64,000 nt of DNA, taken from Chryseobacterium piscicola. Lineage in GTDB: Bacteria; Bacteroidota; Bacteroidia; Flavobacteriales; Weeksellaceae. The position numbers were made by a program, and so were the translations under genes. A model generated the notes under the pieces. That model worked only from the letters and a program-made list of their open reading frames with translations, ran no database searches and had not been told where the DNA came from. The first letter of the stretch is position 1. Every line of letters begins with the position of its first letter. Where the stretch lies: assembly GCF_900156685.1 (NCBI RefSeq), contig NZ_FTOJ01000004.1, forward strand, positions 186,001 through 250,000, in the 5' to 3' direction. Of the stretch, positions 2,925 through 53,713 are shown piece after piece.

Positions 2925-3073
2925 ATTTGGTAATTTATACGCTATGAAAAGTGTTTTTTGTGGCGTTACTTTGTCTTGTTCAAAAAAAATAGAAGCTTCA
3001 AAAAGAAATGAACAAGGTGAAATCTGAAAAACCTAAACAGAGTAGGAAACTAATAATCAAAAATCACAAAATC

Positions 3074-18286: not shown

Positions 18287-18391
18287 AGCTAATTCCCGCT
18301 TTCCGCTGTATCTTTTTTGCTTCAGAAAATTTATCAACAAAAGAAAATTTCATCAAAAGCAAAAAAGGATGCCGCTTCAATCGGGGCTAGG
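18287..18391. repeat. Large imperfect palindromic repeat, copy 2b
   Basis: The left arm begins AGCTAATTCCCGC (18287) and runs through TCTTTTTTGC. The right arm runs from GCAAAAAAGGATGCCGC to the CGGGGCT near 18388. The arms pair imperfectly over about 30 bases around an A-rich centre. Confidence 0.65.
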
Positions 18392-18554
18392 GATTAGATT
18401 GAGTATAGAACATTTCGTAAAAAAAACAAACATTCTCATCCATCTCTTCGTAGTAAAAGAATTCTCAGTATCATTCTAAAAAGAGGCATCACACCGTTTT
18501 TATGTAAACCCAGTCAGTTAAACAACAATTACCCTTTTCCTAGCTTACCTCTTT

Positions 18555-37144: not shown

Positions 37145-37466
37145 ATTTCATTTATTTAAAACAAAAGTAGAATTATAATTAAAAAATATCAAGTAAAAAT
37201 ATGAATTGGTTTAAATTTTAAATTAAATAGTGGTAATTTGTTAATTAATTTATTTTTTTTAATTAATTTTAATGCATTTGGTTGAAATTTTTAATCAACT
37301 AATATTAAATGCTTAAAATTTATTGAAAAGTAAAGTTTTTTAAAAAATAATGGTAATTGGGTATATGGAATATCAAATATTTTCCCGTACTTTGGACCGA
37401 AATAATTTTTTTTCATCATTTGTGTTTTTACCTTCTTGCAAGCAATTGCAAGGAGGTTTTGTTTTT
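37145..37466. other. Very AT-rich gap with an orphan plus-strand terminator
   Basis: Apart from the asnB promoter and the hairpin at 37430, the stretch is nearly all A and T. I see no protein-coding gene. A short plus-strand transcript is possible because of the hairpin. Confidence 0.5.
37162..37192 (-). promoter_or_regulatory. Promoter of asnB
   Basis: On the minus strand TTG (37190-37192), 20-nt spacer, TACTTTTG (37162-37169), 18 nt from the start codon. It is one of the best promoter matches in the window. Confidence 0.7.
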
Positions 37467-37469
37467 TTA
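37430..37469 (+). terminator. Orphan plus-strand terminator with GNRA loop
   Basis: A 12-bp stem ACCTTCTTGCAA / TTGCAAGGAGGT with one wobble closes a GCAA tetraloop and is followed by TTTGTTTTTTT. There is no plus-strand gene upstream for more than 14 kb, and the minus strand lacks a T run after the stem. Confidence 0.7.
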
Positions 37470-49636: not shown

Positions 49637-49809
49637 GTACCTTAAAACTCAATAAAGTAGTAGTAATTTCGAAAAATATTTTTTAATCATAAAAGTTACT
49701 TCACTTTTTACATGAATTTTAAATTGTTTTTGTAAATAAGTGTAAATTTACTGTCTTTTATTTTGTTTTGAGAGGAGAAACATTAAAACTAAACATTACC
49801 TGATTGAGT

Positions 49810-51549
49810 ATGAAAAATGTTGCAGATATTTCAAAACCTTATGGTTTTCGTTACAGAAAGCTTGTACACTATTCTTTAATTCTATGCATCCTGTTTATTC
49901 AACTGATAATTGCTGCTTTTTTTTATAACGAATTTGTAAAGAGTAAAAAATTATCTTTCTTGCAAAAACAACTAGATGAGATTCATTCTTTAGAAAATCT
50001 AACTACAGAATCTAGGCGAGAACTTCTAGTTGCACAAGATTATCTTCATAAATTTATGACTTCAAAAGATGAAACTTTTCTAGAGTCTTACTTTGCATCT
50101 TTGAAAGCTCTTGATGCTCATTTGAATAATATTAATAAATACGAAGACAGGTTTCCAAAAATTAAAAATCTTCTAGCATCTAGAAAAGAGAATTTTGCTA
50201 ACGAGAAAGATTTAAAAAAACTAATAGATTCTACTCACCAGTATACAAGTGATATTAATTTAAACAATCAAAGTGAGCTTCCAGATTTCGAGAAATTCAA
50301 TTTAGATTATGATTTTGATAAGTTTAATGTAGTTTTAGATACCAAAATCTATAGCGATACCGTAGTAAAGAAAGGTCTTTTCGGGAGATTGGGTGAGGCC
50401 ATTTCTGGGAAAGGGAAAAGAGAAAAAGACAGCGTCGTAATCACGGTGAAAGAGGGTGTGATGCCTACCTCAAAATCCATAAAAAAAGATTTTGACCGTA
50501 TTATAAAGCAGGTTAACAATCATTATACAGTTCAAAATAATAAGATTAAGGTAAAAGTAAAAGACAATCAAATTGATAATGATAATTTTTATAAAATTTT
50601 TAATGATCTTTTTATCTATAGCAACAGTTTGATGAATGTATATGAAACTGCAATAAAAGCCTCCAAAACTGATCTTGAGAAAGAATATGAAAAGCAAAGC
50701 GACAAGAATAACGAGATAAGAACATATCTTGTTTTCGGATCGATGATTTTGATGTTTGTGGTTTCTATTTTAATCATGTTGCTTACGAGAATTGCTTTTG
50801 TGTATGAAAGAAAGCTCAATGAAGCCAATCTTAAAATAAAAGAAAATCTTAATTTCAAAAATAGAATCTTGGGAATGTTGAGCCATGAGCTGAGATCTCC
50901 TTTGAAGATTATGGATATTTTTATCAGAAGAATAAAAAAGAAAACCAATGACGAAAGTATCCAAGAATATTTAAAATCTATAAGTTTTACCAATAATACT
51001 TTGTTAATACAAGCCAATCAGATTTTAGATTACACAAAAAACCAACAGATAAATAATAAATTGAATCTTGTTGAGTTTAATTTAAACGAAGAAATAGATG
51101 CGATCTTAAATTCTATACAACCTTACATTGAAACCCGAAACAATAATTTTGTTGTAGAACAAAATATAAATCCTGGATTAATGGTTTATTCTGATAATAA
51201 TAAAATAAATCAAATCTTTATGAATATCTTGGGGAATGCAAATAAATTTACAGAAAACGGAGAAATAAAAGTAGTAACCACAGCCGAGAAGATATCTGCC
51301 GATACTGCAGTTTTAAAAACCACAATTACGGATACTGGCGTTGGAATTTCGAAGTCTGATTTAGAAAAAATATTTGAACCCTATTATCAAGGTGTGATTT
51401 CTGACAAGGTGGAAAATCTTGGTGCTGGTTTGGGTCTAAGTCTTTGCAAAGAATTGGCAGAATTGTATTCTGGCTTTTTAAAAGTGGATAGTGAAAAAAA
51501 TGTCGGTACTAAAGTAGAATTTTTATTGAACTTACAAATAAAAAAATGA
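49810..51549 (+). CDS. Membrane sensor histidine kinase, HisKA type
   Basis: A 579-residue kinase. Helix 1 is at about residues 20-42 and helix 2 at about 302-327, so about 260 residues face the periplasm; this region is helical and charged. The cytoplasmic part has HisKA with His359 in MLSHELRSPLKIMD, an N box MNILGNANKFTENG, and G boxes DTGVGIS and NLGAGLGLSLCK. The start is ATG 49810, two codons after a TTG alternative. It overlaps the regulator gene by 4 nt. A HisKA kinase paired with a LuxR-type regulator is less usual than HisKA_3. Confidence 0.93.
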   Translation: MKNVADISKPYGFRYRKLVHYSLILCILFIQLIIAAFFYNEFVKSKKLSFLQKQLDEIHSLENLTTESRRELLVAQDYLHKFMTSKDETFLESYFASLKALDAHLNNINKYEDRFPKIKNLLASRKENFANEKDLKKLIDSTHQYTSDINLNNQSELPDFEKFNLDYDFDKFNVVLDTKIYSDTVVKKGLFGRLGEAISGKGKREKDSVVITVKEGVMPTSKSIKKDFDRIIKQVNNHYTVQNNKIKVKVKDNQIDNDNFYKIFNDLFIYSNSLMNVYETAIKASKTDLEKEYEKQSDKNNEIRTYLVFGSMILMFVVSILIMLLTRIAFVYERKLNEANLKIKENLNFKNRILGMLSHELRSPLKIMDIFIRRIKKKTNDESIQEYLKSISFTNNTLLIQANQILDYTKNQQINNKLNLVEFNLNEEIDAILNSIQPYIETRNNNFVVEQNINPGLMVYSDNNKINQIFMNILGNANKFTENGEIKVVTTAEKISADTAVLKTTITDTGVGISKSDLEKIFEPYYQGVISDKVENLGAGLGLSLCKELAELYSGFLKVDSEKNVGTKVEFLLNLQIKK

Positions 51550-52187
51550 CAAATCAAAATTTGAAAAACGTAACGTTTGTACTTGCAGATGACCATAGTT
51601 TAATAAGACAAGGAATGGAGATTGTCATTGAAGAAGCAGGTTTTGAGGGCAATATTTACCATGCATCAACTTTACAGAAGCTATTGAAGTGCGTTTCTGA
51701 AAATGAAATCGAAATTGCGGTTATAGACGCTGTTTTCCCCGACGGAAATAGTGTAACCATTATTCCTGAACTAAAAAAAATAAAGCCTGAGCTCAAGGTT
51801 CTTGTGTTTTCTGGTTTGGAAGAAGAAGATTATGCCCTGAAATTTTTCAACGCAGGAGCTAATGGTTTCCTGACGAAAGTGAGCGAGGAAGAAGAGATAA
51901 AAAATGCGCTGTTGAAAATTTATCATGAAGGAAGATATATTTCTACTGTTTCTCAAGGTTTAATGATGGCCTCATTACAAGTGTCGCCAAAACAAAATCT
52001 TCTTTCAAAACTTACAGAAAGGGAAATTCAGATTGTAAAAATGTATGTACAAGGCTATGGTAATTTAGAAATTGCCAACCAGCTAGACATTAAACAAAAT
52101 ACAGTAAGCACAATAAAAAAACGTGTTTTCGAAAAACTTGATATTGATAATCTCGTAGATCTTGCTGACCTGCTAAAAAGCCTTTAA
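51546..52187 (+). CDS. LuxR/NarL-type response regulator
   Basis: A 213-residue regulator with receiver residues Asp15-Asp16 and phospho-acceptor Asp61 in AVIDAVFPDG, and a C-terminal LuxR helix-turn-helix (LTEREIQIVKMYVQGYGNLEIANQLDIKQNTVSTIKKR in outline). The ATGA overlap with the kinase gene marks them as a pair. The 755-nt gap downstream has a candidate small RNA that it might control. Confidence 0.93.
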   Translation: MTNQNLKNVTFVLADDHSLIRQGMEIVIEEAGFEGNIYHASTLQKLLKCVSENEIEIAVIDAVFPDGNSVTIIPELKKIKPELKVLVFSGLEEEDYALKFFNAGANGFLTKVSEEEEIKNALLKIYHEGRYISTVSQGLMMASLQVSPKQNLLSKLTEREIQIVKMYVQGYGNLEIANQLDIKQNTVSTIKKRVFEKLDIDNLVDLADLLKSL

Positions 52188-52306
52188 TATTATTCACTTT
52201 TATTTGATTCTATAACGTTTTTGTGAAGCTCAATATTTTTGCTTATCATAAATATTGATTTTAATATTCAAGACTAATTTTATTTTTATAAAAAAAATAT
52301 CGTTTT

Positions 52307-52342
52307 TAAAACGCTAACTCATTCATTGTTAGTGTTTTTTTT
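52307..52342 (+). terminator. Terminator of the second two-component operon
   Basis: ACGCTAAC / GTTAGTGT stem with one wobble, flanked by AAAA / TTTT and a T8 run. It lies about 120 nt after the regulator stop. Confidence 0.7.
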
Positions 52343-52413
52343 GTTTAGTAGAATTTGTTTTTTCTACTTTAATATATTCTTATCATTTATTTATCGTAAA
52401 AATACGGAGCGTT

Positions 52414-52456
52414 TTGTAGAAAAATATCTACAAGCTGAGTGATAAATATCTACAAG
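52414..52456. promoter_or_regulatory. Inverted and direct repeat upstream of a promoter
   Basis: TTGTAGA (52414-52420) and TCTACAA (52427-52433) form an inverted repeat. AAATATCTACAAG is repeated exactly at 52422-52434 and 52444-52456, period 22. The site ends 30 nt before the -7 element at 52487, a usual place for an activator site. Confidence 0.5.
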
Positions 52457-52486
52457 ATTTATTCGTTTTCTACTTTCATATCACTC

Positions 52487-52494
52487 TATATTTG
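52487..52494 (+). promoter_or_regulatory. -7 element of the candidate small RNA
   Basis: TATATTTG, an exact TAnnTTTG match, with no protein gene in the following 200 nt. No clear TTG at -33, which would fit an activator-dependent promoter. Confidence 0.5.
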
Positions 52495-52498
52495 TATC

Positions 52499-52705
52499 AA
52501 GAAAAATGCTCATTGTAACACAGGTTAAACATATGTTTTCTGAAAAGGATTAAGTGATTTCCATGCAATAAATAAAACACATCCTATCAGTGAGCAAAGG
52601 TATTAGGAAAATTATTTCAATATATTAATTTTTGATTTGGTGTGAATGAACACAAATGATGAACACCTAGTATCATATTGACAGAGCCGAAAGGCTCTGT
52701 TTTTT
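52499..52705 (+). ncRNA. Candidate small RNA of about 205 nt
   Basis: The predicted transcript begins just after TATATTTG (52487) and ends at a strong terminator (52681). Only tiny reading frames of 11-15 codons lie inside. A GGTGT / ACACC pairing near 52638-52666 suggests structure ahead of the terminator. The size would fit 6S RNA or a regulatory RNA, but I cannot assign a family. Confidence 0.5.
52681..52705 (+). terminator. Terminator of the candidate small RNA
   Basis: Perfect 8-bp stem ACAGAGCC / GGCTCTGT with a GAAA tetraloop and a T5 tail. Confidence 0.85.
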
Positions 52706-52776
52706 GAAACTGAAAAATTATTAATAAAAACACATTTATATATATTCTAAAAACACAATTGATTAACCAAAAGTAT

Positions 52777-52819
52777 CCTATTTATTACGCCTAACGGCTT
52801 TTAAATAGGTGCTTTTTTT
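52777..52819 (+). terminator. Second terminator-like hairpin in the gap
   Basis: CCTATTTA / TAAATAGG outer stem with inner GCC / GGC pairing, followed by TGC and seven T. Confidence 0.6.
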
Positions 52820-52894
52820 CTTGCTAAAATGCCAATATGGCTTTAATGATAATGTATTTTCAACCAATACAGTTTAGTTTAGTTTTTATAAATC

Positions 52895-52923
52895 AAAAGC
52901 CCTCAGAATTTCTGAAGGCTTTT
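52895..52923 (-). terminator. Terminator of the DUF3108 gene
   Basis: AAAAGCC-TCAGA / TCTGA-GGCTTTT stem with one internal mismatch, just past the minus-strand stop. Confidence 0.65.
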
Positions 52924-52942
52924 GTATTTTCTATAAATAATA

Positions 52943-53713
52943 TCATTTAATAAATTTTATTGGATATTTCACGTTTTTATAACTATCCAAACTTGCTTTC
53001 AGAGATCCCACCGCAAGCTCTGCTTTCAGAAGCACTGGGATGTGATTGGCATCATTAGTTACCCACATTGTAACGCCTTCCTTTTCCTTAAAAACTCTTC
53101 CGCTTTTTACAGACGGTATAATTTTCAAACAATTTACTTTTCCGAATTTTGTGTTTAAATTTTCTGTTCCCATCACTTTTAGCTGAAAAGCAAACATTTC
53201 ATCATCAATCCAAACATTCATGTTAATCACCCTTCCAGTACGCAGTTCATTGGGGGTTCTGCTTCTGAGATAATAAAAGCAAGAAAGCATATCTTGAACA
53301 CCTTTTACAGATTTTATTGTTTTGGTTCCGTTTGAGGGCGTTTTTTTATCAGTTAGCAGCAACGTGTTGTTGTTATGATTAAAATTGGTTTCGAAATGCT
53401 GTCTGTAGCTACCTTCTTTTACGTTTCTTACATAGAATGTTGGCAATTCTGTTTCAGTATTAATATAACTTTCGTAGAGATCTTCAACTTTAAAAAAAGC
53501 TTTTACGGCACCAGTCGTGGAGCCTGTCCCTTTTACATATAAATGAGGTACACCTCGGAAATTTCCTCTTTTAGTAGTAAGGTTAGCATTTCCGGCAGTT
53601 AAAAACCCATAGTGAATCCTAAGATTAATAGATTCCCCATCTGCAATATTACTAAGCTGAGCTTGCGAAAAACTCACAAAAAAAATCGTAAGAATACTGA
53701 ATAACTTTTTCAT
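52943..53713 (-). CDS. Secreted DUF3108 family protein
   Basis: A 256-residue protein with a signal peptide (residues 1-18, ending SQAQ). It contains GESINLRIHYGFLTAGNANL, the opening of the DUF3108 domain, and the later motif GRVFKEKEGVTMWVTNDANHIPVLLKAEL, which is the family's best-conserved end. It is periplasmic or outer-membrane-associated, with unknown function. A TATATTTG element on the minus strand lies at 53740-53747. Confidence 0.88.
   Translation of the reverse strand: MKKLFSILTIFFVSFSQAQLSNIADGESINLRIHYGFLTAGNANLTTKRGNFRGVPHLYVKGTGSTTGAVKAFFKVEDLYESYINTETELPTFYVRNVKEGSYRQHFETNFNHNNNTLLLTDKKTPSNGTKTIKSVKGVQDMLSCFYYLRSRTPNELRTGRVINMNVWIDDEMFAFQLKVMGTENLNTKFGKVNCLKIIPSVKSGRVFKEKEGVTMWVTNDANHIPVLLKAELAVGSLKASLDSYKNVKYPIKFIK

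Follow-up and report, generated by a model that had tools for sequence, protein, structure and literature searches.

A two-component system is followed by a noncoding interval

The stretch of DNA analyzed here (64,000 nucleotides of Chryseobacterium piscicola, hereafter the window) encodes on its plus strand a sensor histidine kinase (49804–51549; HisKA and HATPase_c domains) and a NarL/LuxR-type response regulator (51546–52187; Response_reg and GerE domains), both identified from their reading frames and Pfam matches. This pair and an opposite-strand DUF3108 gene bound a gap at 52188–52942. Regulator orthologs were found in 205 of 320 Weeksellaceae genomes, across 13 genera. Neither protein reached the NCBIfam equivalog cut-off for the BarA/UvrY (GacS/GacA) system, the regulator scoring 98.6 bits against 280 and the kinase 121 bits against 890 for the BarA family. 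Synteny through the downstream DUF3108 gene was uninformative, as other genes occupy that place in many genomes. Towards that side of the gap, ACAGTTTAGTTTAGTTTTTATAAATCAAAAGCC (window positions 52869–52905) is near-invariant in four relatives and lies directly before a bidirectional terminator.

An initial annotation had placed a free-standing RNA gene of 205 nt in this gap, at 52487–52705, without proposing a function; the interval leaves out the upstream regulator box and all features that hint at function. Conservation, synteny and promoter architecture strongly support a free-standing RNA gene after the two-component system, whereas the 3′ end that gave the length of 205 nt is doubtful. 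The same annotation rightly gave the regulator gene its own intrinsic terminator (52308–52345, plus strand; a hairpin of −11.0 kcal/mol, then T8) and saw no real reading frame, there being no ORF of at least 40 amino acids within 52487–52705.

A promoter element lies at a fixed distance from a putative regulator box

The −7 promoter element TATATTTG is present at 52487–52494 (plus strand), as had been annotated; it is conserved in 4/4 close relatives and stands at a constant distance from an upstream box across the family. The consensus TAnnTTTG by itself is weak evidence, because the window has 124 occurrences where chance would give 98. For comparison of its surroundings, the DNA downstream of the regulator gene was taken from 70 loci in seven genera (900 nt each). 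The box, a palindrome (GTAGATAAATATCTAC) and then a half-site (CGAnATATATCTA) upstream of the promoter, was found at 58 of these 70 loci; in the window it occupies 52416–52453 (plus strand), with the palindrome GTAGAAAAATATCTAC and the half-site GATAAATATCTAC. In all 51 of the 51 Weeksellaceae promoters that have both elements, 70 or 71 nt separate the palindrome from TAnnTTTG (71 nt here). From this fixed spacing and the linkage of box and regulator gene, the adjacent regulator would be the protein that binds the box, and presumably the activator of the RNA encoded in the gap.

Exactly two perfect boxes occur in this genome, one of them at the gap locus. The second, which is on a different contig (L002 1436–1550; G000 contig C11, 422293–422330, minus strand), precedes an uncharacterized ORF of 228 amino acids, a likely second target of the regulator, whose product had no Pfam or NCBIfam match. 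At the corresponding locus of a more distant relative (L345), the regulator box precedes a glycosyltransferase-like ORF and not the RNA.

The predicted RNA probably extends to a second terminator

With a transcription start inferred from the −7 element, the predicted noncoding RNA runs from 52501 to 52818 (plus strand; about 318 nt); a shorter form that stops near 52706 is possible. It is conserved throughout its length in four relatives and folds better than shuffled sequence (z = −4.4). The GAAA-capped terminator that had been taken for its 3′ end is real as a structure: the hairpin GACAGAGCC-GAAA-GGCTCTGTT with its T run lies at 52680–52705 (plus strand; stem 52680–52701, 9 bp, −15.2 kcal/mol, z = −4.6). 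As the end of the RNA it fared less well. Its counterpart in the four close relatives lacks a T run and has flanks that pair (AGTATC...GATACT), and conservation continues beyond it; the hairpin is internal in the relatives and a possible early terminator in this species.

A second hairpin followed by T7 at 52769–52816 (plus strand; −17.7 kcal/mol) lies beyond, making the 205-nt length one of two possible 3′ ends. Its stem is kept through paired changes in the relatives, as judged by eye, unscored, in a five-sequence alignment, and it is probably the true 3′ terminator. The RNA is thus probably about 318 nt long, because the relatives' first hairpin is without a T run and conservation reaches the second terminator; a 206-nt form is possible. 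The four close relatives, apparently including Chryseobacterium sp. Leaf394, C. caseinilyticum and Chryseobacterium sp. Leaf404, align across the whole gap, and the conserved block begins at about 52400 and passes through promoter and first hairpin to the second hairpin.

A search of Rfam, which the initial annotation had advised with 6S and other families in mind, gave no assignment. In 52200–53000 neither 6S RNA nor any other Rfam 15 family reached its gathering threshold, a loose search (E up to 5) brought nothing near a gathering score, and the sponge and sRNA sequences of relatives (see below) likewise matched no family.

The predicted RNA carries a motif that is arrayed in related species

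The hallmark of the RNA is the motif AAACACAAATGATGAAA, of which there is one perfect copy here and up to ten near-exact copies in relatives, set amid covarying hairpins. In a similarity comparison with other Chryseobacterium species, matches were confined to the final stretch of the candidate, because in those species AAACACAAATGATGAAA and a hairpin form a unit that is tandemly repeated at the same place. The unit hairpin covaries: 6 pairs are altered on both sides, which 0 of 500 shuffles reached (kinship uncorrected), and structures slid out of register scored far below the real hairpin.

Across the 70 loci, allowing at most one mismatch, the motif occurred 101 times in sense orientation and not once in antisense or as a reversed control; 50 of the loci had at least one such site. 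With wobble pairs and two mismatches, 233 sites were counted against 43 expected in shuffles. The number of sites per RNA ranges from one to about ten across species, and the sites (AAACACAAAUGAUGAAA) are placed mostly in linkers between stable hairpins. Chryseobacterium sp. JUb7 repeats its promoter-plus-sponge genes about 370 nt apart, and other genomes have two. Regulator relatives further out (Flavobacterium and others) had no array. Elsewhere, the loci L253, L268 and L285 have between two and five copies of the motif in sense orientation, some of them (at L253) directly before a terminator; these are possible further sponges or 3′UTR sites.

The reverse complement of the motif is the seed of a putative multicopy small RNA family

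When loci with the motif were read on the opposite strand, 30/39 consisted of TTTTTTCATCATTTGTGTTTTT, then a GC hairpin, then a T run. The reverse complement of the motif is thus the invariant seed (UUUCAUCAUUUGUGUUUUU, perfectly complementary to the AAACACAAAUGAUGAAA sites) of what look like the genes of a multicopy sRNA family, each a seed with an intrinsic terminator and a predicted length of about 70–90 nt. Whilst the seed is invariant, the hairpins vary widely in sequence, and the family was traced by pattern searches since MAFFT misaligned the variable hairpins. TAnnTTTG occurs 28–43 nt upstream of the seed in several of the genes; promoter-like element, seed and terminator, the anatomy of an sRNA gene, were found together with multicopy conservation.

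Each genome examined had 3–10 candidate sRNA genes, with three clear ones in this species and nine or ten in two other genomes. One member lies in the window itself (37388–37468, plus strand), with the promoter-like element TACTTTGG, the seed at 37413–37426 and the terminator hairpin at 37430–37457; it adjoins an asparagine-synthase-like gene, and its orthologs in relatives stand beside the same gene. In another genome, six seed-sRNA genes are clustered in tandem (L277 3500–4600; G153 contig C7).

Exact copies of the 14-mer AACACAAATGATGA number 2–19 per Chryseobacterium genome and are frequent in sister genera, with a reversed control that is almost always 0; in families of the order other than Weeksellaceae the 14-mer is at background. 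Many of the remaining motif copies outside arrays, in further genomes, also show seed, hairpin and T run; some are neither sRNA genes nor in an array and are only partly explained. The sRNAs seem to be independent of the sponge, judging from their distribution, because motif copies are kept in genomes without a strict regulator ortholog.

Two sites in the predicted RNA are predicted to pair with the seed

Site 1 of the RNA (AACACAAATGATGA, 52649–52662, plus strand) is a perfect complement of the sRNA seed (−20.8 kcal/mol); its duplex is second in the window only to that of the sRNA's own antisense. Site 2 (ATTCTAAAAACACAATTGATTAACC, 52744–52768, plus strand), which is conserved in relatives and sits past the GAAA terminator first taken for the end of the RNA, uses an extension that matches AGAATC and pairs with the sRNA type of that name (−22.0 kcal/mol, rank 3 of 4264 tiles). 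When all 4264 window tiles were ranked by duplex energy with the sRNA seed, the two sites came third and sixth, the sRNA's own antisense being first. The extended seed complementarity of sponges of the QrrX/CrfA kind is therefore present here, with a perfect 14-nt core and energies of −20.8 to −22.0 kcal/mol.

The extension recurs in the family. [AG]ATTCT precedes 12/72 exact-core sponge sites, against a background of 1%. In one conserved subtype of the sRNAs, the complementary AGAATC comes after the seed. The seed variant complementary to site 2 (TTAATCAATTGTGTTT) had no exact copy elsewhere in the genome. Substitutions in sponge sites showed no clear preference for changes that preserve wobble pairing, and a joint change of seed and site was seen in no genus. 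The capacity of the sponge in this species may be modest, because it has one perfect and one partial site, and the motif-bearing stretch of the RNA may pair internally.

A regulator-controlled sponge is the preferred reading

Linkage, promoter architecture and complementarity together suggest that the gap probably encodes a sponge RNA, controlled by the neighboring regulator, that sequesters sibling sRNAs. On this model, a signal perceived by the kinase would lead the regulator to act on GTAGATAAATATCTAC boxes and the sponge RNA to be transcribed; its AAACACAAAUGAUGAAA sites would then pair with the UUUCAUCAUUUGUGUUUUU seeds, and sRNA activity would be lost, whether by titration or by triggered decay.

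Complementarity of the seed extends to A-rich start-codon regions (AAACACAA-AUG-AUG-A), and for this reason the sRNAs would most likely block translation of mRNAs that start in this way, making mRNAs with AAACACAAAUGAUGA-like starts their candidate targets, and an active sensor would relieve the block through the sponge. A few genes have precisely this sequence at the start, namely L026 and L030 in this genome and L246 and L263 in others.

The fullest form of the model is one that we favor by a narrow measure. In it, a NarL-type two-component system would drive an expandable array of start-codon mimics that titrates identical-seed sRNAs, these being general repressors of translation initiation at A-rich Bacteroidota starts; the whole would be an RNA-for-RNA equivalent of Gac/Rsm, evolutionarily tuned through the numbers of sites and genes.

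We had first supposed a decoy of the CsrB or RsmZ kind, in which an RNA-binding protein would be captured at AAACACAAAUGAUGAAA, and this hypothesis was demoted once the complementary sRNAs surfaced. A multi-site array with hairpin spacers beside a NarL-type two-component system fits such a decoy, as does the encoding of one RRM protein in the genome, given the binding of sRNA seeds by RbpB, an RRM protein of Bacteroides (PMC11697453). However, 14–17 near-invariant nucleotides make a long site for one small RNA-binding protein, and an exactly complementary RNA partner is present several times per genome, leaving a protein decoy improbable. The sole RRM_1 match in the genome (L292; G000 contig C6, 350563–350769, plus strand) lies in a 134-aa frame, and its product is, by the RbpB parallel, a candidate partner of these RNAs.

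Another reading, which is quite improbable, makes the RNA a conventional trans-acting sRNA: it would itself pair with mRNAs, and the seed RNAs would regulate it or be its antisense partners. The RNA is indeed noncoding and conserved and has a promoter to itself, and the CrfA sponge of Caulobacter was initially taken for an mRNA-pairing sRNA (PMC12559287); yet the repeated element here resembles a start-codon region rather than its complement, the sRNA seed is the only recurrent complement found in these genomes, and expansion of site copy number is what would be expected of a sponge. A DNA repeat of the REP or MITE kind, with no RNA function and with gap and terminators incidental, would account for the species-variable copy number and the tandem copies at some loci, but is highly improbable in view of the strict strand asymmetry, the fixed spacing of box and promoter, the linkage to one regulator in several genera, the covarying stems and the invariant seeds that stand alongside unrelated hairpins in the small RNAs.

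Relation of the predicted sponge to known systems

BarA-UvrY and GacS-GacA, two-component systems of the NarL type, activate CsrB/CsrC and RsmX/Y/Z through upstream boxes, and these RNAs carry many copies of a short motif amid hairpins. They titrate the protein CsrA/RsmA at GGA motifs, and their gene copies multiply. The gap system shares this circuit logic and array architecture and differs in its ligand, which would be an sRNA family here and is a protein there. In place of the GGA motifs in hairpin loops that mark CsrB and RsmZ, the repeat here is AACACAAATGATGA and lies mostly in linkers, and there was no Rfam match to the CsrB/RsmZ families.

In its chemistry the predicted RNA would resemble two described sponges. 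CrfA of Caulobacter crescentus acts against the sibling sRNAs SisA–D and is, similarly, a dedicated noncoding RNA that pairs with a seed common to several siblings (PMC12559287). As described there, CrfA has one pairing region, is Hfq-dependent and has a transcriptional regulator that was not determined; the gap RNA, by contrast, belongs to a family with arrays of up to ten sites, lies beside its likely regulator, comes from another phylum and has no sequence relation to CrfA. QrrX of Vibrio cholerae, a sponge of the Qrr sRNAs (described in PMC12559287), likewise antagonizes a multicopy sRNA family; phylum and sequence again differ, and the present case has tandem-site arrays and linkage to a regulator. 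The gap RNA would be best explained, in our analysis, as a sponge in which chemistry like that of CrfA and QrrX is joined with the circuit logic of Gac-RsmZ.

No earlier description of the gap RNA, and none of any sponge RNA in Bacteroidota, was found in the openly licensed literature searched, which for the gap RNA is hence not proof of novelty. Post-transcriptional regulation in Bacteroidota is little understood, and the proposed model would link sensor, DNA boxes, multi-site sponge, invariant-seed sRNA family and candidate start-codon targets in one testable circuit, with a range that takes in many species of Chryseobacterium, Epilithonimonas, Kaistella and their relatives. With as many as ten pairing sites and a copy number that varies between species, the tandem arrays look unusual for bacterial sponges, and this variable size would make the strength of titration directly measurable.

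For the seed sRNAs, the nearest described counterparts are the FopS and GibS sRNAs of Bacteroides thetaiotaomicron, which were reported with RbpB and of which the FopS sRNAs act at start codons (PMC11697453, where no sponge is mentioned). The likeness lies in multiple copies, a 5′ single-stranded seed, an intrinsic terminator, action (predicted here) at start-codon regions and the phylum; the comparison with FopS is one of description, and there was no Rfam 15 match at the seed-sRNA loci L165, L160 and L032. At L160, in another genome, about 100 nt separate the seed sRNA from a Flavo-1 RNA. The window has a Flavo-1 RNA of its own at 18288–18392 on the minus strand (RF01705, 74 bits), as well as a DUF805b RNA motif (RF02914) at 3014–3048 on the plus strand.
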